A program made the position numbers and the translations under genes. Positions 55,583-60,491 of a stretch of 64,000 nucleotides of DNA are shown in pieces. How positions within the stretch are numbered: the first letter of the stretch is position 1; every line of letters starts with the position of its first letter. The stretch spans positions 62,001 through 126,000 of the forward strand of contig NZ_CP147505.1 of assembly GCF_037201915.1 (NCBI RefSeq). Direction: 5' to 3'. Under the pieces are notes generated by a model, which did not search any database, was not told where the DNA came from, and worked only from the letters and a program-made list of their open reading frames with translations. This DNA comes from Haloplanus sp. CK5-1 (GTDB lineage Archaea > Halobacteriota > Halobacteria > Halobacteriales > Haloferacaceae).

Positions 55583-55855
55583 TTACCCTCCGGCGCGCAT
55601 CGCCTTCCGGGCGAACCGCTCGATGAGTGCGTCGAGGCCATCGGGGTCGCCCTCGAAGACGAGGTCGACCTGCGTCAGCGACACCGACGGCCCGACGCCG
55701 ACGGTCTGTGAGGAGAGCGTCGCCGCCCAGTCGTCGGCCTCGACCCGGTCGTCGTCGACCCGTTCGGCCCCCAGATTTTCGAGATACTTGATAGCCAGGC
55801 GCTTCGAGATGCCACGGAAGGACCGCTCCCGCGTCACCCAGTCGTCGGTCGTCAT
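55583..55855 (-). CDS. MoaD-associated small protein ending in Gly-Gly
   Basis: The 90-residue product starts MTTDDWVTRERSFRGISKRL and ends ...FARKAMRAGG. Its ATG overlaps the stop of the MoaD/SAMP gene (ATGA). From memory it resembles the DUF1952-type domain fused to MoaD in some bacteria, but I cannot confirm this. The terminal Gly-Gly is notable because ubiquitin-like modifiers need it; here it may be coincidence. Confidence 0.55.
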   Translation of the reverse strand: MTTDDWVTRERSFRGISKRLAIKYLENLGAERVDDDRVEADDWAATLSSQTVGVGPSVSLTQVDLVFEGDPDGLDALIERFARKAMRAGG

Positions 55856-56133
55856 CCACCCGCCACCGGCGGGAACACCGAGAGCGTGTCGCCGTCCTCC
55901 ATGACCGTCGCCGGGCCCTCCATGTGGAGTACCTCACGGCCGTTTTTCAGGATGTTGAGGTTCGGTTGGAGTTCGCCCTCGTCGTCGAGCAGTTGCCCCT
56001 CCATGCCGACGTACTCGGTTTCCAGGGTCGAGAGAACGTCGCCGACGGTCGCCCCGTCCTCGAACTCACGTTCGAGAGTTTTCTGACCGACTGCCTCGCG
56101 GAACGTCGCGAAGAACCGCAGTTCCAAATCCAT
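55852..56133 (-). CDS. SAMP/MoaD ubiquitin-like modifier, SAMP3-like
   Basis: The 93-residue protein has the MoaD/ThiS beta-grasp pattern (MDLELRFFATFREAVGQK, GDVLSTLETEYVGMEGQL, LNILKNGREVLHMEG) and ends SVFPPVAGG. After activation of the Gly-Gly by a UbaA-type E1 it could be attached to lysines of proteins or carry sulfur for the pterin cofactor. The sequence resembles Haloferax SAMP3 as I remember it. The ATG at 56133 was chosen since the longer frame adds residues unlike the family. It lies downstream of an AOR-type gene, which needs such a pterin cofactor. Confidence 0.82.
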   Translation of the reverse strand: MDLELRFFATFREAVGQKTLEREFEDGATVGDVLSTLETEYVGMEGQLLDDEGELQPNLNILKNGREVLHMEGPATVMEDGDTLSVFPPVAGG

Positions 56134-56654: not shown

Positions 56655-56834
56655 TCACTCGAGGAAGTCCCGGAGCGCCGCGGCACAGCGTCGACAGAGC
56701 AACACCTGGAGTTCGCCGTCCGCGTCGAGCAGGTCGAGTGCGCCGTAGACGTGTCCCGGTTCGATCGTCTCGCCACACCGATAACAGGGGTGGGGCCGGG
56801 CGGGGTTCGACCCCGTCGACTGGCGGTCGGTCAC
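56655..56834 (-). CDS. Small zinc-ribbon protein coupled to the AOR-family gene
   Basis: The 59-residue product has CYRC and CRRC pairs around a short beta body. It starts at a GTG that overlaps the TGA of the AOR-family gene (GTGA). The tight coupling, together with the two Cys pairs, supports a real gene. It may assist or regulate the AOR-like protein; this is inference. Confidence 0.6.
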   Translation of the reverse strand: MTDRQSTGSNPARPHPCYRCGETIEPGHVYGALDLLDADGELQVLLCRRCAAALRDFLE

Positions 56835-58708
56835 GACCCTCGGCCGTGGCCGTTGTGGTGACGTCGGTCCACACCGTCACGGGCGCTCCGGCCGGGACGG
56901 TCGTCCCCGGCCGGCGCGCCGCCGAGTGGCGTCTCGCTATCGACGACATCCCCCAACCCGAGGCGGTCGACCGTGTCGACGGTCGGCACGCCGTCGGGGG
57001 ACCAGCCCCGGGCCGCGTAGTAGGCGTCGAGCATGGCGTCGAACGCCTCGCGGTCGACGGTCCGTCCGGCGGCCGGGCCGTCGGGGAGTGGCTCCTCGAA
57101 CAGGTCCGGGAGCGAGTCGTCGGCACGGTCGAACCCCTCCCGGACGTTGAACAGGCGCACGAGCGTCCAGACGCGTTCGCCGAGCGTCGCCAGCGACTCG
57201 CGGTCGTGGTCGAGTCCGGCTGCAGTCAGCCACTCTGCGCCGAGGTCGCCCCACATGGTCTCGCCGGCGAAGTCGTCGACGACGAGGCTCCAGAGCGTCG
57301 ATCGGACGTTCTGTGCGCCGACCACGGTGGCGACGCGGTCGGCGTCCGTCCACTCGTCGCGGGCGAACGCCTCGCGCTCGACCGGCCGAGCGCGGCGGTG
57401 ACAGCCCCCACGGTCGCTGGTGGCGTAGGCGAGCGCCATCCCCGCCGCTCCGCGGGGGTCGTACGACGGCAGTTCCATCGACTTCACCGTCGGGACAGCT
57501 CCACCGGCGTCTCGCCCCCCGGCGTGTGCCACGCCGTCGGCGAGACGGTCCCCGAGGTCGGTCGACCGGGTGGCGATGGCTTCGAGGAGCGTGGCGGCGT
57601 CGTCCGCGTCGCCGAACGAGAGGCCGTCGTCGGCCTCCGGCCGACTGCTCGTGGAGCGTGGCTCCACGCCGTCCGCTCGCATCGCCCACGCCACCGCGTT
57701 GCCGGCGCTGATGGCGTCCATCCCGAGGCGGTCACAGATCGAAGCCAGACGGACCACCGTCTCGGCGTCGTCGACGCCGAGGCCCGCGCCAAGCGACATC
57801 AGCGCGCCGCCGCGGGGGATCGACTCCCCGTCGTCGGTGTCGACGCGAAAACCCCCCGGAACGGGGTCGTCGGCGTTCTCCCGGCCGGTCGCGGCGTCAC
57901 GGATCGCCTCGATGCCGATGTCGCCGGCGTCGTCGAAGCGGCCGCCCTGCCACCCGCGGGTCGAGAGGACGCCCACCTCGTTGGCGAAGTCGACGCTCTC
58001 GACGGTCTCGCCGGCGGCCTGCCACCGCCCGGTGTCGTCGTCGCGGTAGGCGGCGCCGTAGCGGTCGCGGAGGTCGGCCAGGTCCTCGGAGGGCGTCGGC
58101 GGGTCGCCGCGGACGGCGACGGCCTTCAGCCGTTTGGCGCCCATCACCGCGCCGGCTCCGCCCCGGCCCGCGTGGTGGTCGCCGCCGTCGGAGGCGACCG
58201 TCGCGTACGCCACCCGGTTCTCGCCCGCCGGACCGATGCAGGCGACCGACCCCTCCAAGGCGGCGTCGGTCTCGGCGGCGTCGGCCCCCCACAGATCGGT
58301 CGCATCCTCGATTCGAACCGTACCGTCGGTGACGGTGATCGTCCGGGGGGTGTCGGCAACCCCCTCGATCACCAGCCCGAACGCGTCGGGGAGCGCGCCG
58401 GCGAGGGCGTCGGCGAAGGAGCCGCCGCTGTAGGAGTCCAGAAAGGTCCCGGTCAGCGGCGACTTGGTGATCGCCGCGTAGCGCGACTCGCCGGGGAGGT
58501 AGCCCGAGAGCGGGCCGAGAAGGAGACAGAGCCGATTCTCCGGACCGAGTGGATCGGTCCCGGCGTCGAGTTCGTCGTAGAGGTAGCGAGCGCCGAGCCC
58601 CTTCCCCCCCAGAAAGTCGCGCCGCCACGACGTCGGGACGCGGTCGCGAGTGACGGCCCCCACCGAGAGATCGACCCGGATCACGTCGCGCCGGAGGGGT
58701 GATGACAT
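56831..58708 (-). CDS. Aldehyde ferredoxin oxidoreductase family, iron-sulfur cysteines missing
   Basis: The 625-residue protein has AOR landmarks: GPLSGYLPGESRYAAITKSP, GSVACIGPAGENRVAYATV and HHAGRGGAGAVMGAKRLKAV (pterin and tungsten region), and LASICDRLGMDAISAGNAVA. True AORs bind a [4Fe-4S] cluster through CxxCxxxC before the ALGxNLG block, plus a later Cys. Here that region reads DDPVPGGFRVDTDDGESI before LMSLGAGLG, and the later site reads SLVVDDF; no Cys is left. It may have lost electron transfer or use another centre. The ATG at 58708 avoids a basic upstream extension. It follows arcS by 25 bp. Confidence 0.8.
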   Translation of the reverse strand: MSSPLRRDVIRVDLSVGAVTRDRVPTSWRRDFLGGKGLGARYLYDELDAGTDPLGPENRLCLLLGPLSGYLPGESRYAAITKSPLTGTFLDSYSGGSFADALAGALPDAFGLVIEGVADTPRTITVTDGTVRIEDATDLWGADAAETDAALEGSVACIGPAGENRVAYATVASDGGDHHAGRGGAGAVMGAKRLKAVAVRGDPPTPSEDLADLRDRYGAAYRDDDTGRWQAAGETVESVDFANEVGVLSTRGWQGGRFDDAGDIGIEAIRDAATGRENADDPVPGGFRVDTDDGESIPRGGALMSLGAGLGVDDAETVVRLASICDRLGMDAISAGNAVAWAMRADGVEPRSTSSRPEADDGLSFGDADDAATLLEAIATRSTDLGDRLADGVAHAGGRDAGGAVPTVKSMELPSYDPRGAAGMALAYATSDRGGCHRRARPVEREAFARDEWTDADRVATVVGAQNVRSTLWSLVVDDFAGETMWGDLGAEWLTAAGLDHDRESLATLGERVWTLVRLFNVREGFDRADDSLPDLFEEPLPDGPAAGRTVDREAFDAMLDAYYAARGWSPDGVPTVDTVDRLGLGDVVDSETPLGGAPAGDDRPGRSARDGVDRRHHNGHGRGS

Positions 58709-58733: not shown

Positions 58734-60491
58734 TTAAGCGTTGTCCTCGCTCTCGACGTGGCGCATCTCGACGGCGACACCGCGGGTACTCGCTCGCATC
58801 TCGCGGCCGTGCATCGCCGCGCGGCCGACGCCGAAGGCGGCCGGCCCCTCGACGACCACTTCGTCGCCGACGCGGACGTCGTCGGCGGCGTCGACGACGC
58901 CCGGCGCGAGGACGCTGCCGTGTGGGACGAAGCCGTCTATCTCGACCCGTTTGGTCGGCGCGTCGCTCTCGGCCCAGTGGCGGGCGCCCGCGAGCGTGAA
59001 CGCAAGGACGCCGTACTGTGGCACCTGCGCCGCGAGTTGGGTCCCGTCGCCGTCGCGCACCTGCAGTTTGGGGTGGCGACTCGTCGTCGTCAGGTCCGGA
59101 AAGAGGTCGTCACCCGCACCGGGACCGAACTGGTAGTCCGCGATGGCTCGGATCGTGTTGTGTTGGCGCTCCCGCTTCGAGTACTTGAGTTCGCCCGACA
59201 GCGCGGAATCGAGGTTCGAGAGCGACGCCCCGGTCGTCGGGTGGTCGTCGACGGTGAACTCGAAGGGGGTGTCCACCCGGTCGGCGACGCGTTCGCAGAT
59301 GTCGCAGTAGCCCTCGCCGGGGACGTGAGCGATCACGCGGGGGTAGTCGTTGCGCGACAGATACCGCTCCAGGGCCGCGGCGACGAAGGCTTTCTCCCCC
59401 TCGGTCCAGTCGCCGGTGACCACCGCGTCGTAGTGCTGGGCGGGGTAGGTGCACTCCAACTCCTGGGGGACGACGCCGATTGGCGAGGTCATCGAGGCGA
59501 CGTGGCCGCGGTAGTCGATGGCGCGGTGGAACTGGGCGTGGCTCTGGGAGTCGCTGTAGGGTTTGCGCGCCGAACACGGGACGAGCACCAGCGGGTTCGA
59601 GAACCGATTCCGGTATCGCGTCGTCACCCGGTCGGCGAAGCGCTGGATCTCGACGCGGTCGAGTGTCTCCTCGCTGGCGGCGCTGATCTCCGCCTCCCGG
59701 ATCACGGGCGTCCGCCGTTCCAGATAGCGGTACTCGTGGTCGAACTCCCGGAACGCGGCGGTCAGCCAGTTCTCGTGGCGCGCCTGGCCTTCGAGGTAGT
59801 CCCGGAGGCGACCCCGTCGGATCCGCGTCCGGACGGTGGCAAGCGCCGACCGGAGGGCGGCGACGTTGTGGGCGACACAGGCCTTGCGGTCGAACTCGTC
59901 GAGCGGTGGGTCGGAGGGGAAGGCGCCGGGCAGTTCGTCGAGTTCGTCGAGGTGGTACTCGCCGTCCGTGGTGAGATAGCGCCCCTGCCGGCCCTTCACC
60001 CGCACGAGTTTCGTGTCGACCAGGTCGACGCCGGCGGCGACGAGGCTGGCGACGTTCGCCGGCGTCGCGACGCCCGCGAGGTAGAGCGCGGTGTCCGGGG
60101 GGATCGACTCCCGGACGTCGATCAGTTCGTCGCGAAAGGAGGCACCGTGACCGACGACGCCGGCGGCGTTCGCCAGAACGTAGGCGTCACAGCCGTAGTC
60201 GTCGGCCGTCCGAGCGGTGATCACGCCCGCACTCGGGTAGTCGACGTCGGGGTAATCGACGGCGAAGGAGTCCTGGACGGGCGACTCCGTCCCCGCGGGA
60301 AAGGCCCGATGGGGAAGGACCGTCAGTTCGGCGTCGCTCCCCTCGGGGTGGTCGCGGTCGGCGGCCCACAGGCTCCCGGCGTCGACGACGACGTCGTCGG
60401 CGACGGCGGGGGTCGTCACGGGGTCGCGCAGGCGGAGTTCGCCCAGGCGGGCGGCCCCGTCGCGCCCGTGGACCTCGAAGTAGTCGGTCAT
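58734..60491 (-). CDS. arcS: Archaeosine synthase ArcS (TgtA2)
   Basis: ArcS acts after TgtA to convert preQ0 at position 15 of tRNA to archaeosine. The N-terminal half is TGT-like but lacks the normal catalytic set (ADDYGCDAYVLANAAGV). The core motif LVPCSARKPYSDSQSHAQFH (around residue 315) and a C-terminal PUA domain (VRVGDEVVVEGPAAFGVGRA) are present. Length is 585. tgtA lies 1.4 kb away on the same strand. Confidence 0.92.
   Translation of the reverse strand: MTDYFEVHGRDGAARLGELRLRDPVTTPAVADDVVVDAGSLWAADRDHPEGSDAELTVLPHRAFPAGTESPVQDSFAVDYPDVDYPSAGVITARTADDYGCDAYVLANAAGVVGHGASFRDELIDVRESIPPDTALYLAGVATPANVASLVAAGVDLVDTKLVRVKGRQGRYLTTDGEYHLDELDELPGAFPSDPPLDEFDRKACVAHNVAALRSALATVRTRIRRGRLRDYLEGQARHENWLTAAFREFDHEYRYLERRTPVIREAEISAASEETLDRVEIQRFADRVTTRYRNRFSNPLVLVPCSARKPYSDSQSHAQFHRAIDYRGHVASMTSPIGVVPQELECTYPAQHYDAVVTGDWTEGEKAFVAAALERYLSRNDYPRVIAHVPGEGYCDICERVADRVDTPFEFTVDDHPTTGASLSNLDSALSGELKYSKRERQHNTIRAIADYQFGPGAGDDLFPDLTTTSRHPKLQVRDGDGTQLAAQVPQYGVLAFTLAGARHWAESDAPTKRVEIDGFVPHGSVLAPGVVDAADDVRVGDEVVVEGPAAFGVGRAAMHGREMRASTRGVAVEMRHVESEDNA

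Follow-up and report, generated by a model that had tools for sequence, protein, structure and literature searches.

A cluster-less relative of aldehyde ferredoxin oxidoreductases in Halobacteriales and its association with YqeC and formate dehydrogenase

A protein of the aldehyde ferredoxin oxidoreductase (AOR) family encoded by Haloplanus sp. CK5-1 has lost all four ligands of the [4Fe-4S] cluster together with catalytic residues, and we are highly confident that it is associated with a module of formate dehydrogenase (FDH), YqeC and a MobA-like protein. The protein is most likely not an aldehyde oxidase. Our leading reading, to which a probability of roughly 0.45 is given, is that an AOR-derived, cluster-less protein acts as a partner of FDH in cofactor assembly and not in aldehyde oxidation. 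Its co-occurrence with YqeC and FDH alpha among 195 Halobacteriales genomes is newly described here; no mention of the clade was found in the open-licence literature, and prior mention elsewhere is possible.

Gene and protein assignment

The analyzed window was a stretch of 64,000 nucleotides (contig NZ_CP147505.1, positions 62,001 to 126,000). The earlier note had placed the gene at 56831-58708, which was correct; the strand is minus. The start was set at the ATG at 58708, as in the orthologues (the longest open reading frame opens at a GTG at 58780), and the stop codon occupies 56833-56831. Both Pfam domains, AFOR_N (PF02730, 219.5 bits, gathering score 29.8) and AFOR_C (PF01314, 282.2 bits, gathering score 27), were recognized in the protein. 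The AlphaFold2 model (pLDDT 89.5, pTM 0.91, 35 aligned sequences) was matched by Foldseek to 9mqx, 1b25, 9g7j, and 1aor with TM scores of 0.86–0.90, and all matches at E < 1e-20 were of the AOR family, whose enzymes are the closest solved relatives. By both Pfam domains and fold, the protein is a member of the AOR/WOR family, and the whole AOR fold is predicted by the model to be kept.

The features of the window are listed in Table 1. A functional link to an archaeosine operon (arcS/tgtA) was considered and rejected: the arrangement was found only in the Haloplanus loci and one close relative and in no other genera, and the adjacency of arcS is therefore taken as incidental. The gene of the ThiS/MoaD-like protein (bit score obtained with the conceptual protein, query residue 2 being N instead of D) is linked to the AOR-like gene in Haloplanus and Halomarina (neighbours at L006, L021, and L026). 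The 59-aa open reading frame had no Pfam match; it and the AOR-like gene share 4 bases at the stop of the latter, and it possibly encodes a translationally coupled zinc-ribbon protein.

Table 1. Features of the AOR-like gene and its surroundings, in window positions
Feature	Position	Strand	Basis
Cluster-less AOR-family protein P0001, 625 aa	56831..58708	(-)	AFOR_N + AFOR_C, AF2 model, Foldseek
Kept loop GDHHAGRGGAGAVMG, residues 176-190	58139..58183	(-)	alignment
Former CxxCxxxC site, residues 280-287	57848..57871	(-)	alignment to PfAOR + 40 orthologues
R299-G300-G301, replacing PfAOR E311-Y312-E313 (catalytic Glu313 lost)	57806..57814	(-)	alignment; PMC12096430
First pterin motif kept, D326RLGMD331 (PfAOR D338-D343)	57716..57733	(-)	alignment
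G435-C436-H437 (PfAOR G446-C447-H448)	57398..57406	(-)	alignment
W473...D478-D479-F480, replacing second pterin motif D489xxGLC494	57269..57292	(-)	alignment
Small ORF, 59 aa, two CxxC pairs (zinc-ribbon-like)	56655..56834	(-)	ORF list
ThiS/MoaD-like small protein (WorX/SAMP-like), downstream	55852..56133	(-)	PF02597, 54.6 bits
arcS (archaeosine synthase alpha), upstream, 25 bp before the AOR-like gene	58734..60491	(-)	NF040592, 793.6 bits

Cluster ligands and active site

In the characterized AOR and WOR enzymes, electrons pass via a [4Fe-4S] cluster beside the pterin. In PfAOR, the ligands of this cluster are C288, C291, C295, and C494 (CxxCxxxC and a late cysteine). In the alignment, they are replaced by D280, V283, F287, and D478 of the window protein, in which RENADDPVPGGFRV stands opposite PfAOR RNKPCYACPIGCGRV at the former cluster loop, and WSLVVDDF opposite DSAGLCLF at the late-cysteine site. 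All four cysteines were likewise gone in 40/40 full-length haloarchaeal orthologues aligned (40 rows, 38 different sequences, window protein included), and the replacement claimed in the earlier note was thus borne out, as was its count of only four other cysteines in the protein (C61, C157, C325, and C436). Shifted or compensating cysteines were ruled out, since the stretch aligned to PfAOR 282-300 contained none in any of the 40 orthologues; the former loop is shortened rather than shifted. The comparison with a known AOR and with haloarchaeal paralogues, which that note had proposed, revealed no displaced cysteine, and the four other AOR-family genes of the window's genome all have CxxCxxxC...C. 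Because orthologues of many other genomes share the loss and the paralogues of the same genome keep their cysteines, neither chance nor sequencing error explains it. The 2026 family classification uses the [4Fe-4S] cluster in its Class I definition (PMC13328260); the ligands of one such cluster, CxxCxxxC and a late cysteine, were all replaced in 40/40 orthologues, which places the protein outside this class.

The C288 position is occupied by Asp or Glu in 34 of the 40 orthologues and the C494 position by Asp in all of them, as would be expected if a metal or Fe-S centre were held by other ligands, either these acidic residues or the remaining cysteines. However, neither the C288 nor the C291 position is constant, haloarchaeal loops are often rich in acidic residues, and the only invariant one of the remaining cysteines, C436, is located at the active site, so that a centre of this kind is considered very improbable.

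A further change, absent from the earlier note, affects the catalytic residues: E311-Y312-E313 of PfAOR is replaced by R-G-(A/G/S) in 40/40 orthologues, R299 and G300 (at the former E311 and Y312) being invariant across the clade, and the position of PfAOR Y452 is not Tyr. Acid-base roles have been assigned to Glu313, His448, Tyr427, Tyr312, and Tyr452 of PfAOR (PMC12096430). With Glu313 and Tyr312 lost and no Tyr at position 452, the protein is unlikely to oxidize aldehydes by the usual chemistry. The AOR second-shell set Thr243/Glu313/Tyr427/His448 is incomplete, with Glu313 lost in all 40. The pterin-binding glycine loops had been described as kept, which is true of GRGGxGAVMG and of D338-x-x-G-L-D343 and untrue of D489-x-x-G-L-C494. 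Aldehyde-oxidizing AORs have two pterin motifs DxxGL[D/C]; here the first is present and the second is lost, D489 being replaced by Trp in 40/40 and G492 by Val, Ile, or Pro. The residues W473 and D478 are invariant across the clade, the new invariant residues including R299, G300, and D478; as a guess, R299 and D478 may occupy the space left by the cluster.

Much of the remaining pocket is conserved. Across the clade, no exchange is seen at the equivalents of PfAOR R76, G95, T243, D343, C447, and H448, among them T235 (T243), C436, and H437 (H448) of the window protein, and the position of Y427 (window Y416) is Tyr in 38/40 and Phe in two. Near-invariance is also seen for the GRGGxGAVMG loop and, with R76, for the first pterin motif. 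A pseudo-enzyme that binds neither metal nor pterin, a subunit with a structural or regulatory task in FDH or in a maturation complex, would be compatible with the loss of the cluster, the catalytic Glu/Tyr, and the second pterin motif, and R299, G300, and D478 could then be packing or interface residues; yet such conservation of the first motif, R76, and the glycine loop is unexpected without a cofactor, and this explanation is regarded as unlikely.

Compared with Class I AOR/WOR enzymes (PfAOR, 1aor; WorL, 9mqx), the AOR-like protein shares the Pfam domains, the fold, the GRGG loop, the first pterin motif, and Thr243/Tyr427/His448, but is devoid of the [4Fe-4S] ligands, Glu313/Tyr312, and the second pterin motif. 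YdhV and the class II benzoyl-CoA reductase BamB also have an AOR fold without the usual second-shell residues (PMC12096430); unlike the AOR-like protein, they have a Cys metal ligand, Fe-S clusters, and partner subunits.

Distribution and evolution

The AOR-like protein was present in 97/195 Halobacteriales genomes at a criterion of at least 50% identity (orthology thresholds were set at identity gaps; genomes beyond the 40 aligned rows were assigned by identity only; the 195 genomes are a sample and some are incomplete). About half of the sampled Halobacteriales species keep a member of the clade. Two loci were left out of the set, L027, which is apparently frame-broken, and L010, with one stop in the frame used. 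A scan of public genomes added 26 haloarchaeal orthologues with 52–85% identity.

The cluster-less orthologues formed one clade (support 100/100). A rarer clade of haloarchaeal proteins from the same order (L049-L053, 42–47% identical, e.g., Natrialba magadii NMAG_RS18645) is sister to it and shares with it the equivalents of Y93, H178-H179 (R182-A183 in PfAOR), and R439. The second pterin motif is altered in the sister clade too, with an aromatic residue at 489. The sister proteins differ in retaining all four cysteines and E313, as well as in their neighbours, and two of the genomes that encode them, G071 and G155, are without YqeC. Since the sister clade keeps both, the cysteines and Glu313 were lost on the same branch, and this loss postdates the exchanges of R182-A183 and N93. 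Ten relatives outside the order but within the phylum, picked from the best matches, all had the cysteines. Haloferax volcanii WOR83 (9q1t) and the window-genome paralogue L001 are likewise haloarchaeal AOR-family proteins; L001, which is similar to WOR83, differs in that neither cluster ligands nor catalytic residues have been lost, and it is placed on a separate branch. One sister-clade gene (L049) adjoins amidase and FAD oxidoreductase genes.

The dN/dS ratio between close orthologues was about 0.09–0.25, indicating purifying selection. With the fold kept as well, the gene is not decaying, and a pseudogene or frameshift was rejected, as most orthologues have intact open reading frames and dN/dS is well below 1. 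Selection on a whole clade of cluster-less proteins shows that the AOR fold serves a function even when the cluster relay is missing.

Association with YqeC and formate dehydrogenase

YqeC (TIGR03172, above cut-off) was found in 96 of the 97 genomes with the AOR-like protein (195 genomes, odds ratio 313, p 7e-32); the lone exception, G133, is an assembly 77% complete. Species are not independent, and the test was therefore stratified by genus, which gave p 7e-9 with 12 varying genera. FDH alpha proteins were split into three types, which are not phylogenetically defined: type 1 (about 1,080-1,105 aa, NuoG-like N-terminus, NuoF-like partner), type 2 (about 717 aa), and type 3 (about 1,060-1,160 aa, with HdrA/FlpD-like and TorD-like proteins). 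The type 1 and 2 members tested exceeded the TIGR01591 cut-off; type 3 scored 451 bits against the cut-off of 666, has the motif ARICHS, and is annotated as FDH alpha in Haladaptatus. At least one of the three types occurred in 94/97 AOR-like genomes (odds ratio 139, p 1e-32), and the three remaining genomes had partial or more distant FDH-like genes.

The AOR-like protein is not essential for every FDH, as 18 genomes had types 1-3 without it. An obligate partnership with one FDH type was also rejected: within YqeC-bearing genomes, the link to types 1-2 alone was not significant (p 0.095), and the HdrA-linked type 3 covered most of the remaining genomes. YqeC accompanied FDH types 1-3 in 111/112 genomes, the exception again being G133. 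A short FDH-like type of about 760 aa often occurs without YqeC, which weakens a strict coupling of YqeC to FDH and shows that some FDH-like proteins do without it. These 760-aa proteins were considered as a control lacking the sulfur-ligand motif and rejected, because the motif RLCH was present where readable.

The association was also seen locally. FDH was located within 13 kb of the AOR-like gene in 66/97 genomes, in many cases accompanied by MobA-like and TorD-like genes, YqeC in 64/97, and one or the other in 84/97. Flanking-ORF clustering and family searches showed that the AOR-like gene of Haloferax, Haloarcula, Halovenus, and others adjoins YqeC and a MobA-like NTP transferase, and that of Natronococcus adjoins YqeC; the locus recurs, and its fullest form reads YqeC, MobA-like, AOR-like, DUF7124, two small ORFs, TorD-like, HdrA/FlpD-like, and FDH alpha. 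In the NCBI annotation of haloarchaeal plasmids, the same company surrounds the gene, with betaine transport and demethylation genes, formamidase, formate-THF ligase, and formaldehyde dehydrogenase in addition, a content that would fit one-carbon metabolism. The AOR-like gene of the window's genome lies apart from YqeC and MobA-like, which are located at about 755 kb, and from the type 2 FDH, located at about 2,926 kb.

A proposed role in cofactor assembly

The earlier proposal that an AOR relative without a cluster has taken on a new role is supported and strengthened by the clade-wide loss, the missing Glu/Tyr, purifying selection, and the near-obligate link to FDH and YqeC. Its alternative, another electron path, found no support: no new Cys cluster or fused redox domain was detected, and no constant redox partner gene lies directly beside the AOR-like gene.

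We favour a role in assembling or delivering the FDH cofactor on four grounds: the AOR fold binds a metal-bis-pterin, the parts for redox and acid-base chemistry have been lost, neighbouring genes serve the same cofactor, and FdhD is absent. An AOR/WOR tungstopterin paralogue would have lost its [4Fe-4S] cluster once, in haloarchaea, and would have turned into a partner of FDH; it probably keeps its metal-bis-pterin pocket and holds the FDH cofactor at an intermediate stage of assembly or delivers it, working with YqeC and the MobA-like nucleotidyl transferase in cells without FdhD. We infer that pterin is still bound and that the protein passes the cofactor on and is no catalyst, with the reservation that bis-pterin binding is not assured, the second pterin motif being lost.

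The invariant R76, T235, and H437 and the nearly invariant Y416 could equally belong to a surviving active site. The main rival is a W/Mo bis-pterin enzyme whose reaction needs no single-electron relay, with YqeC maturing its cofactor as it would that of FDH. Such an enzyme would work without a cluster, as DMSO reductase does; its reaction may be hydration or oxygen-atom or hydride transfer between two substrates, e.g., on formaldehyde or another C1 compound. The conserved equivalents of R76, T243, Y427, C447, and H448 fit such an enzyme, as do the nearby one-carbon genes on the plasmids, and its being optional relative to FDH is expected of an accessory pathway enzyme. However, Y312-E313 of the proposed acid-base relay and D489 are replaced throughout the 40 orthologues, Y452 is not kept, and a constant substrate-specific partner gene is lacking, which leaves this enzyme a possible but doubtful alternative.

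FdhD, the usual sulfurtransferase that activates FDH (PMC10609526) and is needed for W-FDH in Methylorubrum (PMC13197769), was found in 0/195 Halobacteriales genomes with PF02634 and in 0/12 genomes above the TIGR00129 cut-off, and the control genomes matched. In some other FDH-bearing organisms fdhD is also missing, and their FDH maturation has been left unresolved (PMC10609526), a question on which the link described here bears. FdhD resembles the AOR-like protein in its proposed handling of the FDH cofactor, but is unrelated to it in sequence and fold. YqeC is a candidate replacement for FdhD. The YqeC model of the window's genome (L081:8192-8914, G000:C1 about 755 kb) reached pLDDT 96.7; its best, weak fold matches were SIMIBI P-loop NTPases, e.g., the metallochaperone MeaB, and also MinD, and YqeC is accordingly predicted to be a SIMIBI-type P-loop NTPase with a GAGGKKST-like motif. 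That an AOR-derived metal-bis-pterin holder, YqeC, and MobA together assemble, perhaps sulfurate, the FDH cofactor in place of FdhD is a tentative proposal for which the odds are rather low.

YqeC is named a selenium cofactor protein. SelD was present in only 17/195 genomes, most YqeC-bearing haloarchaea being without it, and in 15 SelD genomes a separate YqeC adjoins SelD. As 81 of the 96 genomes with both the AOR-like protein and YqeC have no SelD, and SelD has its own YqeC beside it, the pair does not belong to the system of selenium-dependent Mo hydroxylases (SDMH), and a selenium-related role was rejected. The role of YqeC has been called 'uncertain' (PMC11448449), and YqeC gains here a second context besides selenium.

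Three local arrangements were recorded in addition. A conserved trio encoding a DUF7124 protein, an 89-aa membrane-like ORF, and a 114-aa ORF follows the AOR-like gene on its 3' side in many genera (L039:7767-9348). In the window's genome (G000:C1:2925819-2934228), FDH alpha lies about 5 kb from an AOR paralogue (L004) with intact cluster ligands. On Haloterrigena and Natrinema plasmids (L120 and L123), the cluster-less AOR-like gene is contained in an apparent betaine-demethylation cluster with a BCCT transporter or Rieske-type oxygenase, an FAD oxidoreductase, glyA, and FDH.
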